From: Perkinsus chesapeaki
Lineage: Eukaryota > Perkinsozoa > Perkinsida > Perkinsidae
NCBI GenBank assembly: GCA_013115145.1
Contig: JAAPAO010000255.1
Coordinates: 1-46,348 of the forward strand
DNA length: 46,348 nucleotides
Direction of reading: 5' to 3'
The position numbers and the translations under genes were made by a program. Shown here piece after piece: positions 3,001 through 28,810 of this stretch. Under the pieces are notes generated by a model. That model was given only the letters and a program-made list of their open reading frames with translations, was not told the origin of the DNA and did no database searches. Position 1 is the first letter of the stretch. Each line of letters starts with the position of its first letter.

Positions 3001-3323
3001 GAGATGTCGCGACCGAGGATCGAAGCTGTGGAATACCAGGGATCTCCTTGGCAGACGATTTGGACTTTTGGCAACTTATGGAGAAGATAGATAACCCTCC
3101 GAGTTTAACAGCTTTACAAAGGGAGTGTGGATTTAGCGACAAATTTTTGAACTTTGTAAAAATCCATTGCTGAGGATCGAACCGGGGACCCTTCGATTGC
3201 TAGATTGACAGCTGTCTACAAATCGACCCGACCAGACGGGATAGTACAACTGCTTTGCTGGCGAATAAGTGGTTTGATGAATTAAATGGCGCGCGGGAAA
3301 CGGTTATTGCATGGCTGGAATGA
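65..3323 (+). CDS. MAP2K/STE-like protein kinase, multi-exon
   Basis: Phase-consistent exons: 699-811, 853-905, 1252-1328, 1881-2177, 2611-2677, 2716-2830, 2872-2908, 2950-2998, 3040-3155, 3204-3323 (stop TGA). The spliced protein shows the glycine loop LGRGGHGVVYK, ATP lysine VAVKM, alpha-C helix SFIKEITILKK, catalytic loop LIHGDLKPANILM, a DFG-equivalent ISDFRVSS, activation-segment end TLLYMSPEEL, DVWSLGLTLLECALGRFP, and the C-lobe end CLQIDPTRR followed by LLANKWFDEL. This order and the SPEEL/GLTLLE signatures fit the STE/MAPKK family of cytosolic Ser/Thr/Tyr kinases. Oddities: HRD is HGD and DFG is DFR. Upstream, exon-like pieces from an ATG at 65 (65-91, 145-178) and open stretches near 290-412 and 493-595 may encode the N-terminus, but their junctions are unresolved. 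Introns are 38-48 nt except for long ones at 906-1251, 1329-1880 and 2178-2610. Confidence 0.85.
92..144 (+). repeat. Candidate 53-nt intron with GGGGCGCC motif (GCGC family)
   Basis: GT-AG segment between exon-like pieces MSAPQALRQ (65-91) and 145-178. It contains TTTTGGGGCGCCGGTAG, close to the GTGGCGCGCG motif of other short introns. The exons are too small to prove the junction. Confidence 0.4.
413..492 (+). repeat. Candidate intron with antisense tRNA-like sequence
   Basis: Between two open exon pieces (about 290-412 and 493-595) lies a GT...AG segment. Its complement carries the B-box-like GGGTTCGAGCCC followed by a TTTT run, as in the other tRNA-like introns. The 5' boundary is ambiguous: the splice site could be at 413 or 421. 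Confidence 0.45.
2678..2715 (+). repeat. 38-nt kinase intron carrying TTTCGTGGCGCGC
   Basis: Removing 2678-2715 joins the DFR exon to GTLLYMSPEEL exactly in phase. The intron is little more than GTAACG, the motif TTTCGTGGCGCGC and CTTAG. The kinase alignment across the junction makes it well supported. Confidence 0.85.
2909..2949 (+). repeat. 41-nt kinase intron carrying GTGGCGCGCGG
   Basis: GTAGGC...CCAG intron between exon ...PKDDDKQ and IKERVLVDEG, phase 0 on both sides. The core ATTATGTGGCGCGCGGTAAT resembles the segment at 2186-2205 inside the larger intron 2178-2610. Confidence 0.75.
3156..3203 (+). repeat. 48-nt kinase intron made of antisense tRNA-3'-half-like sequence
   Basis: Excising 3156-3203 joins GFSDKFLNF to IDSCLQIDPTRR, restoring the conserved end of the kinase C-lobe in phase. 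The intron starts GTAAAAAT and contains GGATCGAACC (3174-3183), the complement of a tRNA B-box. Read on the minus strand it is a tRNA-like T-arm followed by ATTTTTAC, meaning a T-run right after the pseudo-acceptor. Confidence 0.9.
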
Positions 3324-4549
3324 TAAGAGTGTAAGGTTTCATTAGCTGTAGTTTGTTTGTAATGAGGTCTGTGTTCAGTAGACAAGCTGTAAATAGGCAG
3401 TCGAGGGTTAGTGCTGAGAATCTGGTGGTAAGTGATGAAGTATAGGCTACAATGATAGCTGTGATGATAATGAATATAGTTTAAATTGATAATAATGGAA
3501 TATATGGAATATGGAAGTGATTCCACTAGTTATAATATACAACTTACTATATTTCACAGACGTTGGTACATAATTTTTACCTATTATTAAACTAAGCTAT
3601 TTGAGGGCTTGGAAATCTTTCTTACCATCTCAATAGAATCTATTACAGTATATTATTGGTTATTTATTTATCCACCACAGTGTTGTTATATATCACACTG
3701 TTGTTGTGTAGTTTTAAAATGAGTAATATAAATACAGAGTTATAGGTAACTGAATTTATATATTTTAGAAGTGGTGCACTAGGGGTCGATCTATAAGGGT
3801 ATGAATTGGTTGTAATATGAATTTAACACAGTTGGCGCGGCGGCGGCGGCAGCGCTATGACTCAGGTTAGTAGTTTTTTAGCTCTGTTTTAATGATACCG
3901 CTTCTTCGTATAAATAACGACCGCTGTTGGCGTCATCATCATTTGGTAATTTATCAATCGATAAGAGGATTTGGTAAGAAGTCAAAAAAAGGAGGACAAC
4001 AAGAAAAAGTAGAGGAGGAGGTGCCGTTGAAGGCTGTGGTAATAATAGAGGGCTTCGGTTCAACTCGTAGACTCGTATTAACATTCAGGAGGCATCGATG
4101 ATGCGCAAGAAAATAGTTTTTATGGACTGTACTTCTACACTTGGTGAAATTCCAGGACTTTTAAGATTTTCAATTTGGTAAATTGAAGTTCGGTCATGGT
4201 ATATACTTTTATGATAAAGCTAGGAGGAGGGCGGTGCTTTCTGAAGATGCGGCGGAGTAGATCTTTTCAGCATTTATGCGGTGAACAGCCTGTATGATCG
4301 ATCGGCGAAAACGTGTGGTGCCCTGTTACAAAGGTTTAGATATTCTCGACAGTGTTTAAAAATGATAGCGGTAGAGTACGCGAGTTGAAAAAAATGAGCT
4401 ACCGCTTTGTATACGGTTGGCATTTACCTGCTTTGGTGCCAAGGAATAGTCAGAGTACTGATAGCATATGTTTTGGTGCTGGGAAGCACTATTTCTGAAG
4501 CAGCGTTGTTTTTCATACCAAATTTCCTCCAAATCATCTCATATTTCAG
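3324..4549. other. Intergenic or unresolved exon region
   Basis: No confident gene. It is AT-rich from 3480 to 3780, with a GC-rich trinucleotide stretch (GGC repeats) at 3832-3850. An exon-like open stretch at about 3975-4092 reads KKGGQQEKVEEEVPLKAV and then VVIIEGFGSTRRLVL. It could belong to the 5' part of the following RAP gene or to a separate gene; I could not connect it by phase. Confidence 0.4.
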
Positions 4550-7500
4550 CGTCCAAGTCCCCCCGGTCCGGTGGCAAGATATGCTATAGATGGGAGTGAG
4601 CTGGGTGGCGGGGAAGTAACAGCGATTGAGGTGGGGAAGGTTATGGCGAAAGCAGTTAGTGATGCGACTCTTAAAGAGGTAAGTGGTAAGCTGGGAAGTT
4701 AGCGTTAGGGAGGTATCTTTGCGCACTGTGTAGATTTTATCTGAGGCGGCTAAGTATGGTAGAACGGATGATGATTTATTTAATGTTTTGAGGAGCGGAA
4801 ATGTCGACTGTAAGTGAGATGGTTGTTGAGAGCTAATCGTCCTGAATCAACCGATATACTTACTAATGGCATTTTTGTACTAGTTGCCGCAAATCATTTG
4901 CGCTATTATCGCGGAATAGCGGCGCACGCTCTATGGGCACCGTCAAGTGGCAAGTGAAGTGCTCTGGTGTGCATGCTTTACGTCATCAGTCCAGACAATT
5001 AGTGGAACTATTTCCCACATCAGGTCCAGTCTCGCTGAGATCATCACCTCTCACGCCATCAACAGCAATATCGATTCTGGAGGCATGCGCGGTCAAACGC
5101 GTCCGAAGTTTTCCGGACTTGGCGAAGATTTCAGCAATCTTGCTGCGGCCGGGGAACCCTAGGATGACCGCGGAGGAGGCGAAGACGCTGCTGAGGGTGT
5201 TCAGCTTTATGGGAGCAATAAACGAGCCTCTGGCGCTCGCGTGCGCGAATAGTGTCATACCGGAAATTTCTCAAATGTCGTGGCATGACGTAACGACGCT
5301 TGTTCGAGACGTGGCTCGACACAGGTAGTATTTGGACTGGGGAATCTTCCGCCGGATAATCGATCACGCGATCGATTTATCGAATACCTCTTTTCAGAGC
5401 GCGGCCGCGTGAACTATTTGAAGCTATTATCAGCCGAGCTGTTCCTGAGCTTGAAAGTATCCCATCTAAAGATATATTCTCGTTGTGGCACACTGTATGC
5501 TACCTGAGGATACCTTTGAAGGAAGAGGTCATAGGGGGTATCTTTCGCACTGGGAAGAATTTTAGGTTGGATAATTTGTTCTTAGTGAAATTGTGAGGAA
5601 AGTTGTGATGCGGTATTTAATAATCGACTATACGGCAGTTGTTATTGCGTCAATTCTTTCGAAATTTACCCGTCGGCCATGGAGGGCCGACGGGTAAATG
5701 TCATCAGATTTAGTTGTCATAATCGATCAAGTGATCGATTTAGGACTGCCGGCGTATCGCTGAGGAAATCGTTAAACGATCGGCTTCTGGTGAAGGTGGC
5801 TTGGATGATATTATCGATGCTGCGTATGCGTGCAGTATGATGTCATTGGGAGCTCTCAAGGAGGAGGGATATCAACATAGTGAGTTGGCGAAGGAGCGGT
5901 ATGGCTCTTAATTCATACGTATGGGATTGGATTTCATTCCGTCACTCGCGTATAATGCGCGGTGGGGGATGGGAGATGGAAGGACCCCTCGAACTAACCG
6001 TGCTATTGGGGGGATTTATAATCTACATTTTTATTTTTGAACTCAAATGAGAAGGCAGTGCCTCATGTATTAGTAATTTGGTTTTGCCCCTCCAATCTTT
6101 ATCACCGGTTCTCTTCCAGGCACATTAGGACCATTGGTGTGGGAGATAATTAAAAGGATTCAGGGAGGAGTTACTGATGAGTGGTTTATGGAGAATAAAT
6201 CTGCACATAGAAGGTTGCTTGTGGTTAGAGCACATTTGAGATACTGTCTGCGGGATGATTTGTAATAAAGAGGGGGCAATCGGAAGCGAGATATACCGTT
6301 ATTATCACACGATGTTAATTACTACTATACATCATATCTACATCTATGTCGTATTTTCATATCATAGCCATTATTATTATATGGAGCTCGATGTTCCTTT
6401 GGTACTAGTAACTGTTCATGGATTAGGCGGAGATGAAAGCGAGACGATTTTGCAGGACGTTTTATACGTTACCCGACGGGAGGGATGGAGAAGCTTGAAA
6501 GGCTATATAAATCTAGATTAAAAACCGTAAAAAGATGAAAAATGGGTCGTTGACAAATTGGCCGCCTTTAATTGGCGAGTTTTGGACTGTATTGATACGG
6601 ACCGATTAAACCTTCTACTATGCGTATACCTGCTATCAGATATCTGCCGCTCGGGGACGATGCCAAGTCTGCCTTGCGGAGAGTTCATCGAATTGATTTG
6701 AATGCTAACAGTATTGTGGAGCAATACCCGGATAATGCACATCCGGTCCGATTACCCAAGTTTATTATGCAGCTGAGCCAGATTTTACGTAGTAGAGGGA
6801 AGGTGGGTGGGTTTGGCGATGCGAGAATCCGTTCTCAGTAAAATCTTCCTATTTGAAAAGAGTACGAGTTATTCCACTTTCTCTCTTTTGCTCTCAAGAA
6901 GCGAGGTAGTTGAAGTCGTACTAACATCAAGGACTTCTTGTTGTGCCTTGGAATCGGCCGAAGGTCCCCTATCATTAGTAAACGCTCAACTATTTGTATA
7001 ATCAGATTTTTACAACTTTTTCAACCCATCAGCGAATCATTCTAAGAATCGGAATCGGGAAGATTTGGTGTTTTCTGGCAGAGGCGAGAAAAAATTGCCA
7101 TTAGGTAAACTTAAAGTAGCTCATTTCGTGAGAGCTCGTCGAGGTCCATTTACATTCGACATATTGGAGAGAGATAGGAAGCTGGTTTGGGAATGTAACC
7201 ATTTCGATAGATTTTACGGGTAAGCGGTGAAACAGGGGGATATCCTTCCGCCCGAAAGTTCCCTTATCTGTTTCTTGTCTCATCAAAGAGAGTCCTAGAG
7301 GGATTTCAGAATGTGGTGATGATATGCCAGGCCCAGCAGTGATTTTTTTGCTCTTTTTCTGAAAGTCCAACGTTCTCTATATCACTTTGGAAACACCCTG
7401 ATCCCAGGGGAGCGTCTATTCATGAGGTTAGATGGGTCCGGGGCCCGCTCGACTCCGGGTCGCAAATCGGTCCAATCGACAACGCTCCTCAATGTGGGTG

Positions 7501-7736
7501 GATCCGGGAAGAGTCGCAATTAAGGAGCATTCTGCAGTGGAAAATTTGCAAATTATCTAGGCTATATATTACCGAGAATTGGAAGCATTTGGTACAAATG
7601 ACGTAACGTGTTGAGTTTTAGATCATCTTTTGATAAGTTGGCGACACGGAGACTCGAGGAGAGGGTTATCAAAGCGATGGGATATCGTATAGTGCAGGTG
7701 AGAGGGGAGGAGGTCAAGTTCTCCGATACCTTTTGA
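4550..7736 (+). CDS. RAP-domain protein (putative organellar RNA-binding), multi-exon
   Basis: Supported exons: 4550-4678, 4746-4809, 4884 onward, one ending at 5324, 5398-about 5598, about 5744-5911, about 6136-6266, 6620-6802, 7047-7219, 7622-7736 (TGA). The last two give FDILERDRKLVWECNHFDRFYG joined to SSFDKLATRRLEERVIKAMGYRIVQV. That is the RAP signature: a charged strand with H-F, then a basic R-L-lys-A-x-GYxhhxV end. Internal exons (for example TAEEAKTLLRVFSFMGA and DDIIDAAYACSMM) look like helical repeats, as in FASTK/RAP proteins that bind organellar RNA. Internal stops at 5909-5911 and 6264-6266 show that some junctions are unresolved. It is also possible that 4550-4884 belongs to another gene. 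Introns at 5325-5397 and before about 5744 carry the ATCGATC palindrome. Confidence 0.7.
5325..5397 (+). repeat. 73-nt intron carrying the AATCGATC palindrome
   Basis: GTAGTA...TTTTCAG separates open exons ending VRDVARHR and starting ARPRELFEAI. The palindrome AATCGATCACGCGATCGATT lies at 5358-5377. Confidence 0.75.
5664..5699. repeat. Perfect 15-bp hairpin
   Basis: Arms ATTTACCCGTCGGCC and GGCCGACGGGTAAAT are separated by the 6-nt loop ATGGAG. It lies in a probable RAP-gene intron, just upstream of a palindrome copy at 5721-5740. There is no T-run typical of a bacterial terminator, so its role is unknown. Confidence 0.85.
5721..5740. repeat. AATCGATC palindrome copy near a candidate 3' splice site
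   Basis: AATCGATCAAGTGATCGATT, with 9-bp arms, is followed directly by TAG. The open frame downstream reads RIAEEIVKRSASGEGGLDD. It is probably the 3' end of an intron of the RAP gene. Confidence 0.7.
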
Positions 7737-7831
7737 GGTGGATACTTTCCCGTTCGGAAGAGCTGTTTTGTATTTCGTAATGATGGATTAAGATTTTATT
7801 GTCGATAGTCTCCGAAGGGGCACACTGCAGA

Positions 7832-8419
7832 CGAGGACGGCAGCAGCCGGTGGTCTTTTTGGAAGTGCTACGGGGGGAGGTATGTCGGCAATCACCATCA
7901 GGTGCCTTTCTGGCATTGGCGACGAGTGACGCTTAAATCGCGGAGAATTGATATGATAAGAATGAGCAGGTAACTGGTATAATCGATCACGTGATCGATT
8001 TGGATTACACCGTCAGGTTTATTGCATTGCGAGATTTCAGAGAGCGCCATATGGCTAAGGGAGAAGTGGATCAATACTCTGACCCCACAAAAGTAATAGG
8101 CGCAGGTTCGATCCCTGGTAGGGGTATTTTATCTTCATTTAGTTTAACGCTAGGGAATGTGCCTTGGACAGCAACTCCTTCCAATACATCGGGGAGAACT
8201 TCTTTAAGGCGCAGAAGCCGAGTAAAGCTTGGATGCTTTCTGGGGCAGGACTTAAGCTGCAAAAATTGCCGACGAGAATTACTATGTGATCGAATCGATC
8301 GCGCGATCGATTTGTGTTTGGCATGTTTATGACAAAGGTTTCTGCTATGTTGGGGTTCGGTGTTAGTTCGGATGGTATTTTTGGCAGGGCCGGAAGGGCT
8401 TGGAAGTATCTTAGGTTGA
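7832..8419 (+). CDS. Unknown small protein gene with repeat-family introns
   Basis: Phase-consistent exons: about 7832-7879, 7902-7969, 8017-8092, 8143-8285, 8338-8419 (TGA). The spliced product includes VVFLEVLRGEVPFWHWRRVT, then RFIALRDFRERHMAKGEVD, SDPTKFNARECALDSNSF, QYIGENFFKAQKPSKAWML, and a hydrophobic tail FLLCWGSVLVRMVFLAG that could be a membrane segment. I do not recognise the family. The start codon is not found: the frame is open upstream of 7832 but lacks an ATG, so a 5' exon is probably missing. Three of its four introns are copies of repeat families (palindrome, tRNA-like, palindrome), and the first would be only 22 nt. Confidence 0.6.
7970..8016 (+). repeat. 47-nt intron centred on a perfect 20-bp palindrome
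   Basis: GTAACTGG...CCGTCAG with AATCGATCACGTGATCGATT at 7981-8000. Splicing joins RRIDMIRMS to RFIALRDFRE; retention gives an immediate TAA, which supports excision. Confidence 0.75.
8093..8142 (+). repeat. 50-nt intron made of sense tRNA-3'-half-like sequence
   Basis: GTAATAGG...CATTTAG between SDPTK and FNARECALD, phase 0 on both sides. The core is GCAGGTTCGATCCCTGG (T-arm and B-box), then AGGGGTATTTTATC, where the T-run doubles as a polypyrimidine tract. Confidence 0.85.
8286..8337 (+). repeat. 52-nt intron with perfect 20-bp palindrome
   Basis: GTGATCG...GACAAAG with AATCGATCGCGCGATCGATT at 8293-8312. Exon phases 2/1 fit, giving PTRITM followed by FLLCWGS. The downstream frame choice is the weaker point. 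Confidence 0.6.
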
Positions 8420-8825
8420 AGCGCGTTTCATCGATCTTGATCCATTTTAGTGTTTACTTGTTAAAATGGCTTTGGTACCTGGAACAACAGAGTGGGAGGA
8501 TATACATGTAAGGATTATGTGAAAAAAGTCACTGCGCCACGAAATTGTAGACGTTACAAAACTTGCTGTTCCAGAAACGAGAATTGATTATGATTTCTGA
8601 TGTTTATGCTTATTCCTTATCGTGGTGATTCTCGTCGCCAGTTTTGAGCGTAGTTGAAAAATATAGGATAACTATATAGGGATGTTGGAGGATAGTTGAA
8701 GAATATTGTTGCGATACTTGATTGCAGAGCAGGAGAGGGTGATGGAGTGGCTCCACTCGCTTAGCTGATGGTCTGGAAGGTTTGCGAAGGGTGATGAGGA
8801 CTGGGAGCTGTACATTGTTGTACAC
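8420..8825. other. Intergenic, no gene seen
   Basis: No convincing exon. It contains one antisense copy of the GCGC intron motif, TCACTGCGCCACGAAATTG at 8529-8547. The same 19-mer recurs inside a proven intron at 28019-28061. Confidence 0.5.
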
Positions 8826-9106
8826 TTGTCAAGTTCGAAACCGGGCATACCAAACTCGGTGACCTCTCAAGTGAAGGCAGGAAATAAGCTCCCGAGCTAA
8901 TATTGTTATCGATCTTGGCGGCGCCCACATGAGCCAGACCGGATAGGATAATCCTTAGAACTTCTAAGGATTATCCTAAGGCCTTCCCGAGGACTTCTAA
9001 GTGACAATTCCTCGGGAAGGCCCTTCCCCCGGAGGCTCATGTTTATTTGGTTCGACATCAGACGACTTGGCATATCCGGACAATGAGTCAGTTGTAGAGT
9101 AAACAC
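8826..9106 (-). pseudogene. Decayed paralogue of the secreted-protein gene at 9473-9931
   Basis: Patches on the minus strand match the neighbouring gene. One corresponds to the GFELEP region (plus-strand GTTCGAAACCGGGCATACC versus GTTCAAAACCGGGTATACG). Another corresponds to the GFLRIIIIG region (AATCCTTAGAA). Between them the sequence is scrambled by two perfect inverted repeats, and no continuous frame remains. It looks like a tandem paralogue broken by inversion-type events. Confidence 0.5.
8944..9022. repeat. Two adjacent perfect inverted repeats
   Basis: First hairpin 8944-8978: arms TAGGATAATCCTTAGAA and its complement, with a 1-nt centre. Second hairpin: arms 8980-8993 (GGCCTTCCCGAGGA) and 9009-9022, with a 15-nt loop. 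One arm of each corresponds to sequence present once in the intact paralogue (around 9750-9780). Confidence 0.85.
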
Positions 9107-9472
9107 CCAGTTCGGGGTCAGAGTCCCTTGGGTGTCGTCAGGGGCGTCGTCTACTTGTTCGCTTTTGTGTGGGCAATGATAGACGGCTCGCCTCAGCAGC
9201 TGCAGGTTGGTGAAGGCGGCCCTGCTTCAGTGAAGGTTGGCTTTTCCTCTCACCGTTCGCCTAGCGCCTCAACTCTTAGCTGAGCCCATACTCAAGAGCT
9301 ACAAAGAGGCTCTGATAGAAAACGCAAAGCTAGATTTGATACTCGTAAAATAATTGCTGTTTTGTGAAGATTGCGAAATAGTCGGTATCAACCATCGAAC
9401 CTAGCAACCATTCTGAGCCTCTCCTGTAGAATAAGTGACTCAACAACATGAACTGCTGGTTCAATAATCCAC
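9107..9472. other. Intergenic, no gene seen
   Basis: Moderate GC sequence with no supported ORF, RNA gene or repeat. It is the 3' side of the minus-strand secreted-protein gene. Confidence 0.4.
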
Positions 9473-9931: not shown

Positions 9932-10367
9932 CGGGTAGAAGGTTATTAGTAAGCTCTGGGATGCTCCTTGAATGGGACAGAGAAAAAAACTGAGTTATAA
10001 CAAGGAGAATAAGAACACTAAACTCAAGACAAGCAAGAACCAAGATAGGGATATCAGTTTACCCTCTTTTAGCGATGAATAATGGGCGAGCCAAATTAAA
10101 AAGCTACGGTTGCTATGTACGAGGCTACGAAGACTGCGTGCTCGTGCAGCTGCCGAGCAACGAGTCAAATAGGGTATATCTCTCTTGCGAGTGGTGGCAT
10201 ACTGAAGATCACATACATAAGATGATCATCATCATCATCATCATCATCCTTGGGATTGATGCTTTCCTTGAGTAAACTGCTTCTGCTAACGTGGCAATGG
10301 TTGCTTTATACATTATGCATCGGCCAAAGTTATAGATTAGCCTTTGACGCCTCCCTCCGCGCTCGTG
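9932..10367. other. Intergenic, with ATC microsatellite
   Basis: No supported gene. Includes an (ATC)8 run at about 10224-10248; the short ORF across it is only the repeat. Confidence 0.5.
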
Positions 10368-13392: not shown

Positions 13393-14916
13393 ATGTCGAA
13401 TGTTACCACTTCCTTTGTAAATTCTACTTGTATTCCTGATGATTGGAGAGTCTTTTCTCTCACTTATGTGCCTTATCCAGCACAAGACGGAAAGGTAGGG
13501 AAACTACCAAATCGATCAAGTGGGCGAGCGCTTTTTACAGCGAAACTGGATTTGACCAAGTGCATCAATTTGCTACAGTGTGGGTCGCCAAGCTGCCGTG
13601 GGAAACGCACTCTTCACTGATGATGGGAAAATCCAACGAACAACTTGAAGTGTTAAAATTTTGTATTTACTAACGTATTCAGGCATCCTGGCACTATTGG
13701 CATCCATACTGATTGTTCTTCATATAGCTTTTAAAGAATAGATTGATTGGGATGAGTTGTTTCGTTGAGACTCGGAATTGATAGGTTGTGCGGATTGAGA
13801 TTTATTAAATCGATCGTGTGATCGATTTGTTTTTTCAGTTACTTGGTGCGATTTGGGGCCTATTGACTTTGTCGCCAATATTTGTTGCTTGGTCTGTTTT
13901 GACAATAGCATTAGTTCGTCAATCGGTAAGTTGAAAAATACCCTCGCCAGGGATCGAACCCGGGCATTTATTCCGGAGATTTCGAGCCTGTTGGAATACG
14001 TGCTTCAAGGTTTTCACAGTATCGTTGTCTCTCTGAGCTTGCCCTGCAGAATGACCGCAGTAGATGCTGCCCCCTTAATCCTCTGACCGTGTGAAAATAT
14101 GCCTGGAATTTCTCAGGGAAAATGCGTCCAGCCAAACATACGTGAATATATCTGTTCCATCTCTGGTGGTCTGGTAGCTCTCAGTAGTGGATTTGTCGGA
14201 GGTATTCACCGCAACTGCCTTTCGGAATCGATATAGTAGTAGCTGCGCAGTTTTCGTTTGTGTGCATGTGATGGCCCGTGTTTGATGGCGGTGGCAAGGA
14301 CGGGAAATTTCGGAGACCTGCAATCGATTTTTGCGTGTTCCTGTTCCAACGAAAATGACTCGTTCTCTTGACGAATCAATGAAGAAGAATGTGGAGGTTA
14401 ACTGAGGGAGGATAACACATGTCTTGTTCAGGTTCGCTGGTTTTTGCTTTTAATTGGTTTGATACTGTCAACCACAATAAATGAGATTCTTAAAGCGATA
14501 GTGGCAGAGCCGCGCCCAGAAGGAAGCTTCCGGGGAGGATACGGTATGCCGAGCGACCATTGCCAGTTTTATGGTTTTATTATTGCTTATGGGTAATCGA
14601 AAGGTCTCTGGTTCGAACCCCGGTGGAGGCATTTCTTGACAGGTTCTTGTTTGTTAAGCATCATGTTCAGACGCAACCATCTTGGATAAGATTCATTCCG
14701 CCTGTACTGGCCGTAGTTTTTATCTTTCTGCCTGTTGCGTAAGCATATCTTAAGGTCAAGCGTGCAAGATACGTGATAACTTAGATACTCGAGAGTTCAC
14801 CTTCTAGCACATACATGGGCGCAAGTTCGTGGAGGAGTGCTTGTTGGTCTGACCTTGGGATCAAGTTGGTTCTGGTTTGTTTATCAGACGCTTGAAGGTT
14901 ACGGGCTTTTATGCAG
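13393..14916 (+). CDS. DOLPP1: Dolichyl-diphosphatase (PAP2 superfamily), multi-exon
   Basis: Exons 13393-13494, 13839-13925, 14432-14592, 14643-about 14750, 14808-14916; the 3' end is not resolved. The protein starts MSNVTTSFVN, then DDWRVFSLTYVPYP, a membrane segment LLGAIWGLLTLSPIFVAWSV, another WFLLLIGLILSTTINEILK, motif 1 K-x6-RP (KAIVAEPRP), motif 2 GGYGMPSDHCQF (PSxH), a segment PVLAVVFIFLP, and motif 3 HTWAQVRGG with the catalytic His. In other eukaryotes this ER membrane enzyme dephosphorylates dolichyl pyrophosphate to recycle the carrier for N-glycosylation. Phases agree for exons 1 to 4; the junction around 14750-14808 does not close cleanly. Introns carry the palindrome (3' end of intron 1) and tRNA-like sequence (introns 2 and 3). 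Confidence 0.88.
13808..13827. repeat. AATCGATC palindrome at the 3' end of DOLPP1 intron 1
   Basis: AATCGATCGTGTGATCGATT followed by TGTTTTTTCAG ending at 13838, the acceptor of the exon LLGAIWGLL. The intron (13495-13838) also holds a half palindrome, AAATCGATCAAGTG, near 13510 at its 5' side. Confidence 0.85.
13926..14431 (+). repeat. DOLPP1 intron 2 beginning with antisense tRNA-like sequence
   Basis: 506-nt intron between ALVRQS and VRWFLLLIGL, phase 0. Its first 60 nt read GTAAGTTGAAAAATACCC followed by CAGGGATCGAACCCGGGC. That is the complement of a T-arm, pseudo-acceptor and T-run. Confidence 0.75.
14593..14642 (+). repeat. 50-nt DOLPP1 intron made of sense tRNA-3'-half-like sequence
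   Basis: Excision joins YGFIIAYG to FLFVKHHV, in register with known dolichyl-diphosphatases right after the PSxH motif. The intron is GTAATCGAAAGGTCTCTGG, then TTCGAACCCCGGTGGAGGCA, then TTTCTTGACAG. This matches anticodon-loop 3' side, variable loop, T-arm and acceptor of a tRNA followed by a T-rich trailer. Confidence 0.9.
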
Positions 14917-16903: not shown

Positions 16904-17814
16904 ATGTCCGGCGTCGCTGGTATTATGTTTAAATCACCATTGTATGATGAGGAGCTAACAGAGGAATTGTTGGAGAGGATCGAAACAGCAGGGCCATTGA
17001 AGAGACGAGGAGGGATAAAGACGTTTAAAAGGATGGATGAGATAAATCCCGAAGCCGTAAGTGATGGGCTGTGCCGAGAATTGAACTCGGGACCTCTCGC
17101 ACCCTAAGCGAGAATCATACCACTAGACCACACAGCCGTTGATTATTTAAGGCTCCCTGTCAGATACCCTTCATCAGGGAAATTGACAAACGTGTAAGAC
17201 AATTACTGGGGGAAAGGAACTCCACCAACATTCGAAGAATGGGCCTTGCAAAAGAAGGGCTTTGGAGACAGAAGCTGAAACTAGGCTTTTTAGAATTCGT
17301 TTACATGCAAGCTGGATCGAAGGGGATGGCACGGTAAGCAACGATATCGGAGGGATGGGCGTTAAACAGCTGATGAAAAAGAAGCGATTAACAGTGTTAT
17401 AGAAAATTGATATAATTCAGAGTGAATTTTAGCTAGCTTTTATAGCTCCCTCGATAACTTACTATCGTATCGAAACGGAGCTGGTGAGCTTGAGGAGTAT
17501 TTACTTCCCTTCAGGCACAGAGATGGCGCAAATGACAGCGACTTTACGGCACTTTTCTGCATCACAGGGAGTGCCGAATGCACTATTGAGAATGAGAAAT
17601 TCGTTCTTAATGAGGGAGACATGTAAGATGATGTGTTTTATGTACCTTCTTTATTTTTTCATTTTAGGTATATTTTCGAACCACACAAGTACTTCCATTC
17701 GGTTGGGCCGCCAATGCACGGTACATGTCCGATAGATGCATGTTGTTGTTGAATGTTGGCTTTTCAGATAGAAGAAGAATTGCTGTTGCATGCCGATACT
17801 TTCTTGAGGAGTAA
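16904..17814 (+). CDS. 2OG-Fe(II) oxygenase-like protein, 5 exons
   Basis: Exons 16904-17056, 17164-17333, 17437-17622, 17668-17741, 17768-17814 (TAA), total 630 nt, all phases consistent (209 aa). The N-terminal half is helical and basic (MSGVAGIMFKSPLYDEELTE, IPFIREIDKRVRQLLGERN). The C-terminal half shows LLPFRHRDGANDSDF (HxD), ALFCITGSAECTIENEKF (jelly-roll strands), then PHKYFHSVGPPMHG (distal His) and YRRRIAVACRYFLEE (Arg that would bind the 2-oxoglutarate C5 carboxylate). That H-x-D...H...R spacing suggests a prolyl-hydroxylase-like dioxygenase; the substrate is unknown. An in-frame ATG at 16880 is an alternative start. Intron 1 contains an intact antisense tRNA-Pro gene, and the last intron is only 26 nt. 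Confidence 0.72.
17057..17163 (+). repeat. 107-nt intron containing a complete antisense tRNA-Pro
   Basis: GTAAGTGATG...CCCTGTCAG between exons ending DEINPEA and beginning IPFIREID. Seventy-two of its 107 nt are the tRNA. Confidence 0.85.
17066..17137 (-). tRNA. tRNA-Pro (AGG)
   Basis: The minus strand reads as a full cloverleaf. Acceptor GGCTGTG pairs with CACAGCC; the D-arm follows with GTCTAGTGGTATGA; the anticodon arm TCTCGCTTAGGGTGCGAGA has anticodon AGG; the T-arm is CGAGTTCAATTCTCG. The D-arm to anticodon sequence matches ordinary eukaryotic tRNA-Pro very closely. It lies inside a protein-gene intron, antisense to the host. No T-run follows the 3' end immediately; the nearest in tRNA sense is CCTTTTAAA in the upstream exon, about 35 nt away. 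Confidence 0.95.
17742..17767 (+). other. 26-nt candidate ultra-short intron
   Basis: GTTGTTGTTGAATG...TTTTCAG. Splicing gives ...GTCPIDA-YRRRIAVACRYF, which completes the oxygenase Arg motif; unspliced, the frame stops at TGA 17750-17752. Confidence 0.55.
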
Positions 17815-20700: not shown

Positions 20701-20704
20701 CCAA

Positions 20705-21544: not shown

Positions 21545-22747
21545 TCATTCTCTATGTCCCACACTGGGCGGAGGTGTCGGAACGTTACTCCTCATCGCTG
21601 CCGGGGATCGAAGGTGTTCTTGCTTAGGCGGTATGATCGGGTAGTAGAATCCTGGCAGACGGATGATATCGGAGTAAATGGCTTGGCCAAATATTAGTAA
21701 TCCGAAACCGAATAGTTGCAACCATGACCAAAGGCTCCAGACTTCCCCAAAGGGCGAGTCTGGCGCGATGGCGTGAATAGCCAAATCAACCATCCAGATC
21801 ACAGCAGTCCTCGAGGCCTCCAGCATTGTACGGTGCACAGCTGAGAGAGCGTACGTTACGAGAATTCCGGACATGTTGTAAGTGAATACAGAAAATACAT
21901 ATAGTAGTATCAGCCATTGAAGCTCGGTGCTGTTCTGAATCATAGTGAACGTGTCGTAGGGATTCTCGGCACTACCAGCATCGTGGCCTGGAATTATGTA
22001 AACGATAGGGAATGCTACCAGAAACATGAGTAGTGTCCCCCAAACACCCTCCATACCGGTGATGAGAAAAGGGGCTATTGTGTGATGTCGGAGCAACCTT
22101 TCTTCGACCACAACTTGTAGAGCTTGAACGATTTGACCAAGAATGATCATAACCATACCGAAGGCTCTGAGGCCGGCCGTCTCATCTGTAGGAGAATTGT
22201 CGATCGCGGTGCTCCTCATGTTAGCAACACCAACCACGACAACTGCCACCACACAGAGGAAAACTCCGAACCAATGGAAGGCTTTGAGTTGCCTCTTCAA
22301 AAATGCAACCGAAAATACCGCGGAAAATATTATCATTGACCCTCTCAACATCTGATAAACCGATGCTGAGTTATATAGCAGCCCCAGGAAGCAGAATACT
22401 GTAGCGACCAAGTCCAAGGCGGCCGGGAATGCAATGAGCATTGATGCTTTGGTAAACGAGGTCGTCTCTACCGGCGGTGGGGCTCCTGCACGCAGTAGGG
22501 GCTGCTGCCGTGCGGCGGCTCTGGTGTTACGTTTACGTAGCTGGCTTACGCAGAGGCTTACGAAATGGATGACCAATACGATGCACATGCCTAGAAACAT
22601 GGTGAGAGTGTTGAACCAAGGCTTCTTGAAAAATTTGGGTTCGCCTTCAACACCAATAGAGATAATCTGAAATTGGACTTTACTCATAATGGTGTTGAGG
22701 CAACCGAATATGAGAAGGCCTAGTACGTAGAACGTGGTCGACTTCAT
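21545..22747 (-). CDS. SLC35F6-like drug/metabolite transporter
   Basis: Intronless 400-aa ORF with about ten hydrophobic helices: TTFYVLGLLIFGCLNTIMSK at the N-terminus, MFLGMCIVLVIHFVSLCVSQ, ALDLVATVFCFLGLLYN, SVYQMLRGSMIIFSAVFSVA, FHWFGVFLCVVAVVVVGVAN, ALQVVVEERLLRHH, GVWGTLLMFLVAFPIVYI, WLILLYVFSVFTYNMSGILV and WLQLFGFGLLIFGQAIYSDI. The order and the motifs SVYQMLRGS, Q..VEE and NMSG..VTYALSAVHR are typical of the SLC35F6 branch of the DMT superfamily, usually in endomembranes or lysosomes; the substrate is unknown. I chose the Met at 22747 because family members begin right before this first helix; an in-frame Met at 22807 would add 20 residues. The loop after helix 2 is Arg-rich (RKRNTRAAARQQ). 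Confidence 0.9.
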   Translation of the reverse strand: MKSTTFYVLGLLIFGCLNTIMSKVQFQIISIGVEGEPKFFKKPWFNTLTMFLGMCIVLVIHFVSLCVSQLRKRNTRAAARQQPLLRAGAPPPVETTSFTKASMLIAFPAALDLVATVFCFLGLLYNSASVYQMLRGSMIIFSAVFSVAFLKRQLKAFHWFGVFLCVVAVVVVGVANMRSTAIDNSPTDETAGLRAFGMVMIILGQIVQALQVVVEERLLRHHTIAPFLITGMEGVWGTLLMFLVAFPIVYIIPGHDAGSAENPYDTFTMIQNSTELQWLILLYVFSVFTYNMSGILVTYALSAVHRTMLEASRTAVIWMVDLAIHAIAPDSPFGEVWSLWSWLQLFGFGLLIFGQAIYSDIIRLPGFYYPIIPPKQEHLRSPAAMRSNVPTPPPSVGHRE

Positions 22748-23622
22748 GGTGATGTTATAACACCAAAAATAACTGTGCAGAGCCCAAGTCGAAGGGCTAA
22801 GGCCCATGATCGATTAGGAGCGACCATCTTGCGACGTAAAGTATTCAACCAATTAGTATTTTCGCTATTTCTGTGTTGAACGAGTACCCTAAATCTCGGA
22901 GTCGATATATCAATATATCTCTCAGAGTCAGTTATTGAGTCATGTTTGATAAACAACATTAAATATTTAATTAATGGAAGTTAGTATTTATTAAACGCTT
23001 TTGTATTCAATCAATTTACTGTCTAAACCCGAATGATATACGCCTAAATTCATCTGTTAAGTAACATTAAGGTAGCCGATGGTAATCGATTAATATCAAG
23101 TTGACGCCCGATAACCAAAGGAGGAGTTAGTTATGTTGAACTTCAGTTCCGGCCAATTGAGTTAGAAAACGGATAAATTTGTTAAATTGAGCTGCTGCGC
23201 ATAAAAATGCCAACACTAGGGATTGAACCTTCGTCCAAGTGATCAGTAAACCTCACTCTTAACCTCTGTACCATTTGAAACACCAAAATCTTCTTGCTGC
23301 ACTTTGTGACGCTTTTTTGCACGCGAGTTCTGAGTCTTTGAATGCGACTAAACTGTATAAAGAAGATAGTTGGGCATAAATTTATCCTTCTCAAGTTCCG
23401 ATGTACTTTACTCATCCGTAGCATCCAACACAGAGGATGTGCTTTCGATACTAATCCAGACGGTTCTTATAACTACGATATTATTTGTATATATTTTTAC
23501 ACTTGTAATCATGGGCGTAATACAACCCCCGTAACTCTTCAAGCAACAAGGGAGAAAAATCAAGTCTTCCCCCAAGAAACGTATTTAATGTTATTTCACT
23601 AGTTACTTCATACCTCCCTTTA
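22748..23622. other. AT-rich intergenic region with one tRNA-like sequence
   Basis: No supported gene besides the tRNA-like element at about 23205-23280. Confidence 0.45.
23205..23280 (-). repeat. Full-length degenerate tRNA-like element
   Basis: Read on the minus strand: ATGGTACAGAGGTTAAGAG (A-box-like D-arm), GTGA...TCAC pseudo-anticodon stem, GGTTCAATCCC (B-box), then GTTGGCATTTTTA (pseudo-acceptor and T-run). The acceptor strands do not pair, so it is not a working tRNA. It may be a tRNA pseudogene or the source form of the tRNA-like introns; no exon was shown on either side. Confidence 0.6.
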
Positions 23623-24507
23623 ATGTGTCGGCAGTCCACCACCACGACTACGAGGCAATCGGACAGCCCTTCTAAAAGGAAACCAAAGCAAGTTGTGGAG
23701 AGTGCTGAGGAGGATATACATAAAGCCCTTAAGAAGCACTTCGACTATGTCTCGCCCAAAGCAGGTAAAATGTGTTACGGGGATTAAGTCTAAGAAAATT
23801 CAGGTAGATTTTTGCCCTCGGCAGTGGAGAACGTGTTTGTGGGATTTTATAATGGACATAATATAGTTATTATTGATGTTAGTATTTGAATATATGTTTA
23901 TGATAGTGAATTCCTTACAACATATTATTATTCTGGGGGATATGAATCGATATGGGAGTATTATATTAATATTTCTGAATAATAGCAAATCCTTAGTGGG
24001 TGATTAAATAGTTTTTATAGGATAGTAGTCGTTGTGATGTAAGTCTGCTACTGCTGTATGATTTTACCTATTTCAGACTTAATATGGCATAGATCGACGG
24101 CTGTGGGCATATCATGCTTCCTCCTCCCGATGATAACCGGACCAGCATTTATTCTGCAGCACTGCTGGTTAGGTGCATTGGTTTGCCTTGTGGAATCTTT
24201 CGCAAGGTAAAATACCTGGGTCAACCTAAGATATTTTATACCTCAGTTTCGCTGCTGATTACGTCTTTATTGATGATCCTACCCACCCATCACAGCGAAT
24301 CGATCGCTACATGTGTATCGTATTTGTCATTGTCACTTGGTACGACTGTATAGTCGTCCTTGGATATTCGGTAGTAAAAGGAGGGAGCGGTATGGCAATA
24401 TAGGAATTTCCTCTTCAATATTCTTAACAGGAAGTGCTTTCCAACGTCGGGCTGCTTTCTCAGTTGCCTCTCCAAAATGTCATAGAAAATTCAATCTCGT
24501 AGGTTGA
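23623..24507 (+). CDS. Small multi-pass membrane protein, 4 exons, unknown
   Basis: Exons 23623-23764, 24077-24206, 24247-24389, 24431-24507 (TGA); total 492 nt, all phases consistent (163 aa). The N-terminus is Ser/Thr-rich and basic (MCRQSTTTTTRQSDSPSKRK, then ALKKHFDYVSP). It is followed by about three or four membrane helices (STAVGISCFLLPMITGPAFI, WLGALVCLVESFASFAADYV, YMCIVFVIVTWYDCIVVLGY) and a basic tail AFQRRAAFSVASPKCHRKFN. The charged segment IDDPTHPSQRIDRY sits between helices. I do not recognise the family. Introns of 40 and 41 nt are typical for the window and show none of the repeat motifs. Confidence 0.72.
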
Positions 24508-25103
24508 TGCTGGAATTGATCAGAACTCTTCCTTCTTTTGTCACTGGTATGGGAATATGGTGGGTCGTTCGTTTTGTAAATGTTTTATAGCGCCCAGTTA
24601 TCATATAAGGATGTCGCTATATCATAAGTAATGCCAAAGACGGCAGTTAATTATATATTAATACTTAAAGTTGAATTATATAACTACATTAAATATATAC
24701 CTTAATATTGTATATAGTTTAATATACAGAATATCATTAGATTTATTTATACTCATCAATATACTTATAATGAATATATATAGACAAATCTATGTAGATG
24801 TAATACTAATGATTATAAAGTATATTGGTGATAATTCATATAGATATAGCACCTTCTGCCATCTAGTGTTTCTGTATGGCTGCTTATAGCTTCTATTGTT
24901 AGGTTATCACGATGTGCCTTCTAATGATACCAATAATGTTATTATTACATTTATCAAGAGCTAGTACTACCAAGGAGCAATGGGTCAGAAGGCATGTAAT
25001 AATAAAATAGAAATTTGCTAAAGTCTTAGGCGTTGGTCTTTCGCTTGGTTATTATGAAAATGAGCCACAGCGACTTCGAGCGGTGCACAAGGTTGGGATT
25101 CCC

Positions 25104-25182
25104 GTTCGAAAACCCGAAACCCGTTCGAAAACCCGAAACCCGTTTGAAAACCCGAAACCCGTTTGAAAACCCGAAACCCGGA
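25104..25182. repeat. 19-bp tandem array, about 4 copies
   Basis: Unit GTTCGAAAACCCGAAACCC (or GTTTGAAAA variant). A short relative, AAACCCGAAACCCGAAC, sits at the very end of the window (46318-46334). Confidence 0.9.
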
Positions 25183-25856
25183 ATCCGGATGGGCAGATTT
25201 TGTTTTTGTTGTTACCTGTGATTTTAACATCTAAGCTCTAAGTAGTTACGACGGGCGTCTATCAGGGAGCTTTTCTGCGGATTTATCCCAGCGCCTTCTC
25301 CAGTGAACTCCATCTTGTCGAACGCATTTTGGAAATCAGCAATTTTCGCAAGAGCTCCGCCCTTGGGTTGAATTTGTAGGCGGCCTACTGGAGGCCGTGA
25401 GAATTGATGTCATCTCAGTTTATTTGGCATCTTCTTGGATCTGCAGGAGTGGCCATCACATTACTTTTGGGTACTCCAAGTTGGAGACATCCACACATCA
25501 GATTTATACCAGTAATATTGGGCAAAAATTTTACCGGAAATTTCGGGGAAAATTTCGGAAAAAAAGTTTCAGTGAAAATTATATTGAATATGATAAGTAA
25601 ATTTCCGGCAAAATAACGAAAAAGACTTCCGGTGCCATTCGTGGTTTGATTACGGTCGAGGCCGCGGGTCCGGGATAAATTATAGGAGCGTAGAAATGAG
25701 TAAGATTCTTTTTAGGACATCTCAGCATATCTCGGCTGAGTGTCGTTGAAGACTTTTGTTGTTGTTGAAGGGCCCATAGGGCCGGAATATACCGTTTCTT
25801 GAGATTGTGCAGTATTGGGTTGAGTAATGTTAGTGGCTGCGCACTGGGAATGTGAA

Positions 25857-26117
25857 TGCCTTTATTTGGTGTTCACGGTGAAATATATCGTTATTATTAA
25901 CTCCTGTGATTCATCAGGGGGGGGGGGGGGTTTATGGGCGTATCGAGACCCATCTGTGCGGCCCACCTGAGACTTGGCACAACAAGGATAATGTAGCATA
26001 CACTGGTGAAACAGCAATGGGTGGTGCATGTATTCACTGCTCTATTCACTTATTGCCTTCATTTGGTGTCAACGGTGAAATATATCGTTATTATTAACTT
26101 GTGTTATTAATCACTGG
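25857..26117. repeat. Direct repeat pair of about 62 bp, 196 bp apart
   Basis: Both copies share GGTGAAATATATCGTTATTA followed by TTAAC. Each is preceded by a GCCTT(T/C)ATTTGGTGT block and followed by a G-run (25857-25930 and 26053-26117). Confidence 0.8.
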
Positions 26118-26563
26118 GGGTTTGCTATTCTGATGTGAATAATTAAATTATATTATGTATCTCATATGTGTTTGTTACATATCCTTAAAGCTGGCTTCTT
26201 TGAGAGAATGGAGTAGCTAATGACCACAAGTGAGAGAGATATCTCTATCTATGTGGCTCATGTGAAGTTATGATTCGGAAATTATTCTGTTATATGTCGG
26301 GTATGAGTTTATCCTGCATCGAAGTTACAAATACATACAATCAATTATTGATAGACAAGAGTGTCTGGACAACAATGATGTTGGTAAGGACGCTATATAT
26401 ATGCGCTGGTGTGAGGGTTGAAGTATCTCATTCGTAAAGGGTTATAGCAATACTCAGTCTAATAGGACCCCCAAAGTGCCAGCTGTGAACCGGCCTAGGT
26501 TGTTATGAACTAGAAAAGACGCACAGGAAAAACACCGTCCACATTTTCTAGCAAATACCCAGT

Positions 26564-27226
26564 TTGAATGGGGAATTGGTTCACAAGCTTCACGAATGGA
26601 AGGAGTATAGTTTTGATTGTTTTCCATTGACTATGAACGAGAGCACGTCATGGTCGAGCTTGATTGATAACGAGTTGACTGCAGCGGTTAAACGCCAAGA
26701 GGAAAAATGTAAACAAATGGATGTCGACGGAGCGACGCAAGATGGGTTCCAATACGGCCTGTTCGAAAAGGCTTGCAGGAGTAAGCGTAATGTGGGGCCG
26801 GCGGGGAGCAGGTTGAAGCGACCGCGGATCAAGGATGACTCTATTTCACCGAAAAAGGGGAGGAAAAAACGGCGGAGCGAAGCAGAAATTACTGAAACTA
26901 GTTTGCTGGATAGACTTTGCGAGGATGAAAAACAAGCGGGTGATGTAGTGGTGTCGAAGAGGGCCGCGGAGCTGTTGGCTGAGGCGTGGGGAATGGAGGG
27001 GCACCTGGAGCAGCCGAGCGACGAGACGATCGAACGGTTGGAGGATGAGAGTGAGGGACAGCTGGATCGGCGATGTGTGGTGGGATTTTGGGAAAAGCAG
27101 AGGAAAAGGGAGAAAATAAAAAGTGGTGGAAAGGTGGATAAAGGAAAGGAGAGGAGCAAGCTGTTGAAGGTTAAGGTTATGAGGACAGATGTGGTAGGGA
27201 AGGGGGTGGGGGTGGGTAAATGTTAA
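26564..27226 (+). CDS. Basic, probably nuclear protein; unknown
   Basis: 220-aa ORF. The Met at 26564 or 26633 (MNESTSWSSLIDNELTAAVK) could be the start. It is Lys/Arg/Glu-rich, with nuclear-localisation-like clusters SRLKRPRIKDD and PKKGRKKRRSEAE, a helical middle ETSLLDRLCEDEKQ and WEKQRKREKIKSGGK. The tail ends in a low-complexity GKGVGVGKC that may really be intron, since GT sites occur there (for example at 27189). It precedes the PNUTS-like gene on the same strand and could be its 5' portion, but I could not join them. The serine-rich minus-strand ORF over the same bases is a shadow. Confidence 0.45.
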   Translation: MNGELVHKLHEWKEYSFDCFPLTMNESTSWSSLIDNELTAAVKRQEEKCKQMDVDGATQDGFQYGLFEKACRSKRNVGPAGSRLKRPRIKDDSISPKKGRKKRRSEAEITETSLLDRLCEDEKQAGDVVVSKRAAELLAEAWGMEGHLEQPSDETIERLEDESEGQLDRRCVVGFWEKQRKREKIKSGGKVDKGKERSKLLKVKVMRTDVVGKGVGVGKC

Positions 27227-27568
27227 TCGATTAATAAATGGTCAATGACAAATAAATTGATAAGTGAATTATCAAAACACATACATATTATGAATGATAA
27301 TATCTATGTGTTAATGTTTCGGTATCGCACGGTTCAATTTCTATCTTGGCGAGATGTATTATGTGAATCATATCGCTGATTCGGGATCATTATGTCGAAG
27401 TAGGCGGACTCGGAAAACGTGTGTCATATTTGAACCTTATTTACTTTGACGGACGATCGCTGGTGGCTGAGGAATGGCCGGGAATGGGACAAAGAAGCTC
27501 TCGAGAGTTTTGGGAATCCATTTCGCCGGATTGACATTTGGTTCACAGTATGGCCGAAAGTGGCTTAG

Positions 27569-28810
27569 TGTGATTGGACTCTATGTGTTTGTAAATGGGC
27601 GAGGTGGTTCTGCGATAGTATCGAGTTGATATCCGAGGTTGATTAGTGCACTTGATGTGCGGAAAGGATATGTTTGTGTCGAATAGGTTACTCGTAAATA
27701 CATGAAGGCGCTTGCGAAAGAAAGCAGTCCTATTGTGAGGCGAAAGGCGTTGTTGTCGATTTTTAACGATCCTTCAGAAGACGAGAAACCTGAGGTTTTA
27801 AAAAAGTACGTCACCAGGGATCGAACCAGGGACCTTTCGATTGGGAATGCTTTGTTGTCAGCTTTGTTAATCGTAAGGGTATCGAGCTGCTCGGTGAATG
27901 GCTCAGCAATTTGGTGAGCGATCGGAAGCCTAACGTTCCGCTGGCGGAGGCGTGTTTGGGTTTATTGGACGAGTTGGACATAACCGAAGGAACTCTGAGA
28001 AATACGGGAATAGGCCGAGTGGGCGGAATATTTTTGTCACTGCGCCACGAAATTGCCTTAGGTTGTTACTGCCGTGGTGAAACGGTTCGCTGGCGTATCT
28101 GAGGGGGTGGTGACGGGCGGTCGAGAATTGTTGGTAAAATGGAAGGATATGGTGACACGCTCGAGAAGGCCGTCGGCGGCGGCGGCGGCGGAGGAGCGAA
28201 CTGATGGAGAGTGAGCGCGGCAGAAACGGTGAAGTCGATCGCATTGTTTATTAATTTCAGGGGAGATGATTCGAAGAGCGAAGAGAAGTAGGCGGAAATG
28301 GAAAATGTTATTCGTGCAACGCTTCGCTCCGCTGTCTAGGTCCCGGAAAGATGGAGCTGGTCTTGAAGGGGTCTTGGAGGAGGATGAGATGAAAGGTTTG
28401 TGTGAGAGGATTTAGGGGACAGATATTGTGTGATTTTAGTTCCAACGGGGGAGGAGGTCGATTTGGATTCGTTGATGGATTTGATGGGAGAAGTGGATGA
28501 AGTGAAAGAGGATGCGCAGATTGGCAGGAATTTGAATGATCCATTGGATCCTTTAAGGTCGGCTTGGCTTAGTGGTTGAGCATCGAGGTCTCATGCGAGA
28601 GATCCTGGTTCGATCCTTGCATAGTATGTTTTTAGACTCATGGCACTTCCTGGGTCTGAGGACTTTGATGATGAAGAGCAGCCATCAACAGGTGTAGTAA
28701 TTCCCCCTGTTACTGAATACTGTCCCCGAATTCGATGGAAGGAGGATAGCGAGCTCGTATCGATGGTGCTGTTTCAGAAGAATGAGCCGCTCTGGGACAC
28801 AGTTGCGTAG
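27569..28810 (+). CDS. PNUTS-like PP1 regulatory subunit (TFIIS N-domain + RVxF), multi-exon
   Basis: Exons 27569-27637, 27687-27805, 27862-28018, 28062-28210, 28261-28287, 28340-28395, 28440-28557, 28636-28810 (TAG); all phases agree. Residues about 60-150 form a TFIIS N-terminal/LW domain: NFVNRKGIELLGEWLSNLVS, PNVPLAEACLGLLDELDI, TLRNTGIGRVVTAVVKRFAG, LLVKWKDMVTRS. An acidic linker (GDDSKSEEKSRKDG, GEEVDLDSLMDLMGEVDEV) leads to CPRIRWKEDSELVSMVLFQK, where RIRW fits the PP1-docking RVxF consensus. This domain order is that of PPP1R10/PNUTS, which targets PP1 to RNA polymerase II. IWS1 or MED26 are alternatives for the first domain, but the RVxF tail argues for PNUTS. The 5' start is missing. 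An exon at 29218-29309 may be a further 3' exon if the TAG is bypassed by splicing. Confidence 0.7.
27806..27861 (+). repeat. 56-nt intron made of antisense tRNA-3'-half-like sequence
   Basis: Excision joins PEVLKK to NFVNRKGIELL, in register with TFIIS N-domains. The intron contains CAGGGATCGAACCAGGGACC followed by TTTCGATTGGG. Its complement AATCGAAAGGTCCCTGGTTC is nearly identical to the sense intron at 14593-14642. Confidence 0.9.
28019..28061 (+). repeat. 43-nt intron with antisense GCGC-family motif
   Basis: Excision gives TGIGR-VVTAVVKRF, the conserved TFIIS N-domain end. The intron carries TCACTGCGCCACGAAATTG. Its complement contains TTTCGTGGCGC, identical to the kinase intron at 2678-2715. 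Confidence 0.88.
28288..28339 (+). repeat. 52-nt intron with CGCTTCGCTCCGCT motif
   Basis: GTAGGCGG...GCTGTCTAG in phase 2/1. The core ATGTTATTCGTGCAACGCTT and then CGCTCCGCTG recurs at 12052 and, reversed, at 42228. Confidence 0.8.
28558..28635 (+). repeat. 78-nt intron that is a full-length tRNA-like sequence
   Basis: Excision joins NDPLDPL-R to LMALPGSEDFDD in phase 2/1. The intron has an A-box TGGCTTAGTGG (28565-28575), a B-box GGTTCGATCC (28607-28616) at tRNA-like spacing, and ends TATGTTTTTAG. The T-run that would end Pol III transcription here serves as the polypyrimidine tract. The stems do not form a normal cloverleaf, so it is a tRNA relic or tRNA-derived element. Confidence 0.85.

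Follow-up and report, generated by a model that had tools for sequence, protein, structure and literature searches.

The window analyzed here is one whole contig of 46,348 nucleotides (nt) from the assembly of the clam parasite Perkinsus chesapeaki (35.4 Mb, 884 contigs), and it carries a set of short elements that resemble the 3′ end of a tRNA, with a B box and a T-run, several of which appear to make up almost entire introns. An initial annotation had named four such introns, two with the element in sense (8093-8142 and 14593-14642) and two in antisense (3156-3203 and 27806-27861). All four are present, each with a GT start and an AG end, and they are made up largely of tRNA nt ~35-73 with the T-run, or of the complement; the last ~18 nt of 27806-27861 are non-element. 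The remark that 14593-14642 and the complement of 27806-27861 differ at one base over a stretch of 20 was correct. We scanned the window with a 39-column profile trained on 91 introns, all from other contigs (the B-box columns were softened by hand), and found 10 sites of at least 16 bits compared with 0.1 per shuffled window.

Among the sense copies, the 50-nt intron at 14593-14642 (+; 43.3 bits) belongs to a subfamily carrying GTAATCGAAAGGTC, described below, and lies in a PAP2-family gene, the spliced product giving a junction-spanning PAP2 match (E 3.7e-06, with a bit score exactly at the curated cut-off). The 50-nt intron at 8093-8142 (+; 37.4 bits), which contains the exact core GGTTCGATCCCTGG and is element across its whole length, was placed by its reading frame (open 141/144 nt). 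Two further sense introns had not been listed previously. The one at 1996-2037 (+; 42 nt; profile site 1996-2034, 23.2 bits) lies in a MEK-like kinase gene, and a MEK1 match of the spliced product (E 2.1e-12) spans the junction, with a one-residue gap near it; because its length is a multiple of 3 and it is stop-free, read-through is also possible. The other, at 28558-28635 (+; 78 nt; 24.0 bits), is a full-length tRNA-like element with an A box (TGGCTTAGTGG), a B box and a T-run, its GT falling at tRNA-like nt 1-2 in our own numbering. A GT..AG stretch of 52 nt at 31258-31309 (+; 42.8 bits) stands as a sense candidate, as had been proposed, and an antisense element (13934-13972, −; 37.2 bits) at the 5′ end of a 506-nt intron (13926-14431) of the PAP2-family gene also holds as a candidate. 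The other antisense copies are the 48-nt intron at 3156-3203 (element on −, transcribed on +; 32.0 bits), which ends in CGATTGCTAG and lies ~1 kb downstream of the MEK-like sequence on the same strand, and the 56-nt intron at 27806-27861 (element on −, transcribed on +; 35.3 bits; frame open 119/238). Newly found elements at 448-486 (+; GGCTCGAACCC and T-run; 30.2 bits) and 23203-23241 (−; 25.6 bits) resemble tRNA 3′ ends, and any intron borders around them are tentative. The four originally named introns had been described as fixed by coding homology or phase, and this holds to different degrees: by homology for 14593-14642, weakly for 3156-3203 (Pkinase, E 0.0014, under the curated cut-off; PDB kinases just E ~0.1), and by frame only for 8093-8142 and 27806-27861, the spliced proteins of which had no Pfam match.

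Genome-wide word searches, with the reversed pattern as control and counts given as the sum of both strands, showed that the elements are dispersed repeats. We found GGTTCGATCCCTGG (≤1 mismatch) at 417 places (196 + 221) compared with 8 (4 + 4), and GGTTCGANNCC at 1877 (928 + 949) compared with 287 (149 + 138), both counts including true tRNA genes. An intron-shaped pattern, GTARG-N{2,24}-GGTTCGANNC-N{10,30}-TTTNAG, had 92 matches (44 + 48) and its reversed control had 0 (0 + 0). Two of the 92 overlap, so that 91 were kept for analysis; the match at C1:302697 probably represents a genuine gene for tRNA-Thr(AGT), in which GTAAGC happens to occur at the anticodon, and those on C42 and C556 were judged by eye to be chance-like. 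In 88.8 kb of fetched loci outside the seeds, the profile had 37 matches (0.2 in shuffled sequence), including some that had served in its training or that are second seeds (L051, L091, L064). Extrapolation of a copy number from this density was rejected because the loci had been picked for elements and the GGTTCGANNCC count implies a lower genome average.

To these repeats we applied one scoring rule, combining donor, acceptor tract and open joined frame, after fetching all 81 exact-core copies. An intron score of at least 6 in either orientation was reached by 48/81, compared with 18.4% of 3240 positions drawn at random from those loci, and a score of at least 7 by 34/81, compared with 9%. 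The 48 comprise 38 sense and 13 antisense copies, three scoring in both orientations. Relative to the 18.4% null, ~33 of the 81 copies stand above chance at score 6, the rest being undecided or outside introns.

Protein homology supports individual junctions in both orientations. Sense introns of 41 nt in MCM4 (homology ungapped, 46/46), 44 nt in COPA (ungapped) and 55 nt in a mitochondrial carrier (no gap in the homology match at the junction) consist of the element, profile and query lengths are equal for a 40-nt intron in a kinase (L047, NIV^HRDIKP) and a 49-nt intron in a cNMP protein (L152), and RPN2 contains a 94-nt full-length tRNA-like sense intron (E 1.6e-24). The best antisense case is a 44-nt intron in CFAP44 (E 2.2e-30). 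We had spliced the carrier gene by eye, and the NCBI gene model FOL47_010601, itself a prediction, is identical (304/304 amino acids); the orthologous protein of P. olseni is 91% identical and has no gap at the carrier junction. In a Band_7 gene (L046, E 0.0012) the junction is less well placed, and an 80-nt antisense, full-length copy (L143) lies in a putative KRI1-like gene, for which a PDB search gave no match. Three sets of ten spliced fragments were compared with Pfam; matches at E ≤0.01 were obtained for 13 of the 30 (7, 3 and 3), several of them under the curated cut-off, and 17 had none. A DOLPP1-like fragment used as a protein query gave no match, possibly owing to the length window of that search. 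The host introns thus lie in different protein families and at non-homologous positions, as is characteristic of introners. Similarity reaches both splice sites, or nearly so, in one sense subfamily (the nt-35 copies, see below) and in antisense copies ending CGATTGYTAG; it does not in antisense copies with longer non-element ends. The proposal that a dispersed tRNA-derived family fills entire introns in both orientations was supported.

The elements retain tRNA geometry. In 65 of the 91 introns, the first TTT begins at nt 74, right after the tRNA body and 22 nt downstream of the initial G in GGTTCGA. The suggestion that the trailer T-run could act as the polypyrimidine tract of sense copies was supported. 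Outside the B box, conservation extends to C48 (88%), G46 (82% of 77), G70, G71, Y72 and A73 (69-95%) and the T-run. However, nt 49 and 65 pair in 47% of the introns, compared with 38% of shuffled partners and 100% of the tRNA genes compared, and we rejected T-stem covariation because pairing is near the shuffled-partner level. Rfam recognized no tRNA, either among the elements of the window (searched to E 10) or at 20 element loci (searched to E 1), and A boxes are not enriched, one (≤1 mismatch) occurring at the right distance in 5/81 exact-core copies and in 6/81 of a control stretch; full-length copies are the exception. The elements are thus tRNA-derived, structurally dead and mostly lacking a recognizable 5′ part. 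The idea that they are real tRNA genes was rejected on the Rfam negatives and broken T-stems, and three long ARAGORN calls (introns allowed) over elements L005, L089 and L095 were taken as false. The genuine tRNA-Pro(AGG) gene of the window (17066-17137, −; 56.9 bits) scored 14.7 bits with the intron-element profile.

A single recent source tRNA was likewise rejected, since mean identity among the introns equals that among tRNA genes (0.517 each); at equal sample size, the introns are closer to one another (0.713) than to tRNA genes (0.625), the tRNA set including at least one intron that ARAGORN had wrongly called. A search for TGGCNNAGTGG..GGTTCGANNC gave 39 matches (0 in the control), 32 of which read as tRNA genes. 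In one of the seven that do not, L086 (C464), the A-box word is inside an exon, and the other six appear to be entire introns (78-94 nt; four with the element in sense, two in antisense), two of them, L140 and L141, with weak flanking frames. The 3′ tail seed GAGGGYATTTTTAG had just 3 matches, which indicates that the acceptor side is variable.

The first search words had been chosen for the B box, which would favor a reading of GGTTCGA as a branch site or other Perkinsus splicing signal that owes nothing to tRNA ancestry. Searching genome-wide with B-box-free seeds and ≤1 mismatch, we found GTAATCGAAAGGTC (nt 35-48) at 71 places compared with 14 in the control and GCAATCGAAAGGTC at 52 compared with 4. 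We checked 22 loci, namely all 14 exact GTAATC places and 8 of the 9 exact GCAATC places (19 newly fetched, plus L091, L156 and the window), and a B box with 0-2 changes was present in 22/22; it was also present in 19 of 20 further loci (L187-L206), L206 lacking it. This recovery, the exact tRNA spacing to the T-run, the AGGTC at nt 44-48 and the very existence of antisense copies make convergence on a splicing signal highly improbable, even though the A of TTCGA may lie near a possible branch-point position in sense introns.

The same seeds define the subfamily. Across its 46 loci, nt 27-34 have no strong preference (the most frequent being T33 in 22 and A30 in 21) and the upstream flanks are unrelated, so that similarity starts at nt 35, inside the anticodon. 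An intron score of at least 5 was reached at 40/46 loci, compared with 22.1% of 1840 random positions, and a score of at least 7 at 29/46, compared with 7.4%; 18 of the 40 fit better in sense and 22 in antisense, with fitted introns of 36-74 nt. As the nt-35 edge is also seen in antisense copies, where no GT is required, it belongs to the element. Nucleotide 35 is a purine in 43/46 and nt 36 a pyrimidine in 45/46, bases that the search words fix or nearly fix; a fairer count, for this reason, is the genome-wide one with nt 37-48 exact (GT 14, GC 9, AC 6, AT 3, CC 1, TC 1), in which 32/34 are purine-pyrimidine and 10 of the 16 dinucleotides were searchable. The dinucleotides GT, GC, AC and AT are those that follow A34 (inosine) in anticodons of tRNAs for Thr, Ala, Val and Ile. 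The proposed start at the anticodon loop, in the form of a tRNA 3′ half, thus fits this one subfamily and not every copy: others start at nt ~41-44 and a few are full length (78-94 nt), and in the 91 pattern introns the distance from GT to the T-arm varies over 9-28 nt, of the 7-29 that the pattern permitted, and peaks at 10-11 and 16-17.

Other sequences with tRNA-like or repeat character were encountered in these loci. Ordinary tRNA genes also contain 5′-splice-site-like words, GTAAGC from the anticodon in Thr(AGT) and GTAGGTC in the variable region of Ile(TAT) (L033 and the tRNA list), and near-identical tRNA-Arg(TCT) gene clusters lie on C328 and C440 (L012, L013, L015-L017, L025, L027), in both orientations on C440. 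A repeat of several hundred nt, present in several copies (L055, L063, L083, L099, L102, L103), has inverted ends like CAGGGTGGCCGGT / ACCGGCCACCCTG and a T-arm-like stretch inside; it has no Rfam match and looks like a miniature inverted-repeat transposable element containing tRNA-like sequence. Two antisense elements on different contigs (L194, L195) have TTTTTCACCTGCTGT in common, across and past the T-run. Finally, a 20-nt palindrome, AATCGATCACGTGATCGATT, occurs in the window at 5358, 5721, 7981, 8293 and 13808 and genome-wide (≤2 mismatches) at 294 sites compared with 0 for the reversed pattern; some copies lie inside short stretches that start with GT and end with AG (for example, at 7970-8016 in the window and near 1539 in L029), and these palindromes are possibly a second repeat family carried by introns.

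We consider it probable, on the sequence comparisons above, that these elements are an old, dispersed tRNA-derived family of P. chesapeaki that works like an introner. An element copy would land in a coding exon and then be removed as a spliceosomal intron. In sense copies, the GT would lie within or beside the element (at tRNA nt 35-36 in one subfamily), the RNA polymerase III (Pol III) T-run would serve as the polypyrimidine tract, and the AG past the T-run would probably come from the target. In antisense copies, the 3′ end or trailer, read as its complement, would often contain or adjoin the GT (GTAAAAAT, GTGAAAAA), whereas the AG would be located at the complement of nt 32-36 or some way past it, as in CGATTGCTAG. 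The 5′ ends at nt 35 could arise through a reverse-transcription stop or cleavage at the wobble nt 34. The repeats, their tRNA geometry, their coincidence with introns and their occurrence in both orientations were observed directly, whereas we infer that insertion created introns, that copying went through RNA and how the nt-35 edge arose. The data point to tRNA-derived sequences as one source of introns, and individual copies may have created the introns that hold them. A bolder variant, which we put forward tentatively as a possibility and not as an expectation, is that the mobile template consists of tRNA 3′ halves: 3′-trailered transcripts stopped or cut at nt 34 would give cDNA from nt 35. 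The anticodon GT would already provide a 5′ splice site and the trailer would provide the polypyrimidine tract, so that tRNA transcripts would be a continual source of introns in either orientation.

Several observations weigh against the introner interpretation. Scores below 6 were obtained for 33/81 exact-core copies, and some junctions are poorly aligned: the best-matching stretch of PPTA (L042) ends short of the junction, an antisense kinase (L043) has 96 residues on 84 profile positions (~12 extra residues somewhere), ADH (L059) has a 9-residue gap at the junction, and the PAP2 alignment across 14593-14642 is gapped (78 residues on 91 profile positions). Many antisense introns include from several to ~18 nt of non-element sequence. 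Target-site duplications, which the initial annotation had proposed to look for, are not general: flanking repeats of at least 7 nt were present at 2 of 26 loci (L173, L175) with 0.35 expected, the 26 including one true tRNA gene, and a test of exon/intron edge register found none above z 2.1. The exon sequence on either side of the intron is often AG|GT, which is expected either from proto-splice sites or from a duplication of very few nt. Searches with the joined flanks of 32 of 75 introns gave no intronless copy. In favor of the introner interpretation, a second copy of the L097 gene, a tandem paralog on C743, keeps the intron, with several internal changes and an identical downstream exon flank. 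The most similar pair of introns is 89% identical over 27 compared columns, and with no greater similarity than this the activity looks old.

The leading rival, which we regard as rather unlikely, is that tRNA-derived sequences entered pre-existing introns as passengers and that deletion in a compact genome later shortened these introns to 40-55 nt, most of which is element. The missing empty sites and general duplications, the non-element sequence retained in many antisense introns, the palindromes that also lie within some short introns and the 40-50 nt length of the five other introns of the carrier gene (in our own splice) all count in its favor. However, sense nt-35 copies mostly extend from the very start of the intron up to the T-run, so that hardly any other intron sequence, or none, is left, and a 36-74-nt intron fits around the element in 40/46 loci compared with 22% of random positions. 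It is less probable still that fragments of tRNA genes were copied into breaks at repair, as DNA-level patches with no mobile element; the lack of general duplications and of A-box enrichment fits this, as does a diversity among copies equal to that among tRNA genes, whereas more than 1000 sites above control, a common G at nt 65 that does not pair with the G frequently present at nt 49, and the sharp nt-35 edge of one subfamily suggest copying from related sources. That the elements are functional tRNA-like RNAs, kept in introns for processing or for a Pol III function, is scarcely credible: they do have a B box and a T-run, but Rfam recognized no tRNA in those of the window or in 20 loci examined, and nt 49-65 pairing is far from the universal pairing of the tRNA genes compared. 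We concluded that the original observation is confirmed and that its interpretation, an introner born from tRNA 3′ halves, is supported in part.

The origin of new spliceosomal introns is a long-standing question. A tRNA-derived introner, if real, would connect the gain of introns with molecules present in all cells, namely Pol III transcripts or fragments of tRNA, and would offer a testable reason for splice-readiness in both directions, namely the anticodon GT, the T-run and the complements of both. The short interspersed elements (SINEs) derived from tRNA have a B box, a T-run, a degenerate tRNA fold, dispersed copies and 5′ truncation, and the Perkinsus elements are like them in these traits, including dispersed high copy number (1877 compared with 287, true tRNA genes included). 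Unlike SINEs, they have no separate body or tail from a long interspersed element that we could identify (the tail search consisting of the word GAGGGYATTTTTAG only), and we rejected assignment to the SINEs because A boxes are not enriched among the exact-core copies (5/81 compared with 6/81). The tailless tRNA retropseudogenes of mammals are truncated tRNA or tRNA-SINE copies that consist of 5′ fragments and are not known to form introns; truncation is common to both, whereas the Perkinsus elements are 3′ fragments and lie in introns. No tRNA-derived introner was found in the open-access literature searched. The introner survey of Gozashti et al. 2022 (PMC9860276), which drew on annotated GenBank genomes accessed in April 2020 and partial aquatic genomes, has in its main text 0 mentions of Perkinsus, SINE or tRNA. 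As described there, most families are consistent with DNA transposition, with target-site duplications in 49/130 families and terminal inverted repeats in 72/177, so that neither is universal. The Perkinsus elements are like those introners in being similar whole introns in unrelated genes, with similarity reaching to near the splice sites; pairs in the same and opposite orientations are considered in that text too, and introners are common in aquatic hosts. They are unlike most of the surveyed families in their tRNA-like source and their lack of general duplications. The introner elements of Amoebophrya, as reported in the text of PMC7789003, provide a parallel in that they too are repeated introns in an alveolate parasite, but these have mostly non-canonical borders, inverted repeats and direct repeats of 3-5 nt, whereas the Perkinsus introns have GT..AG borders and tRNA geometry.

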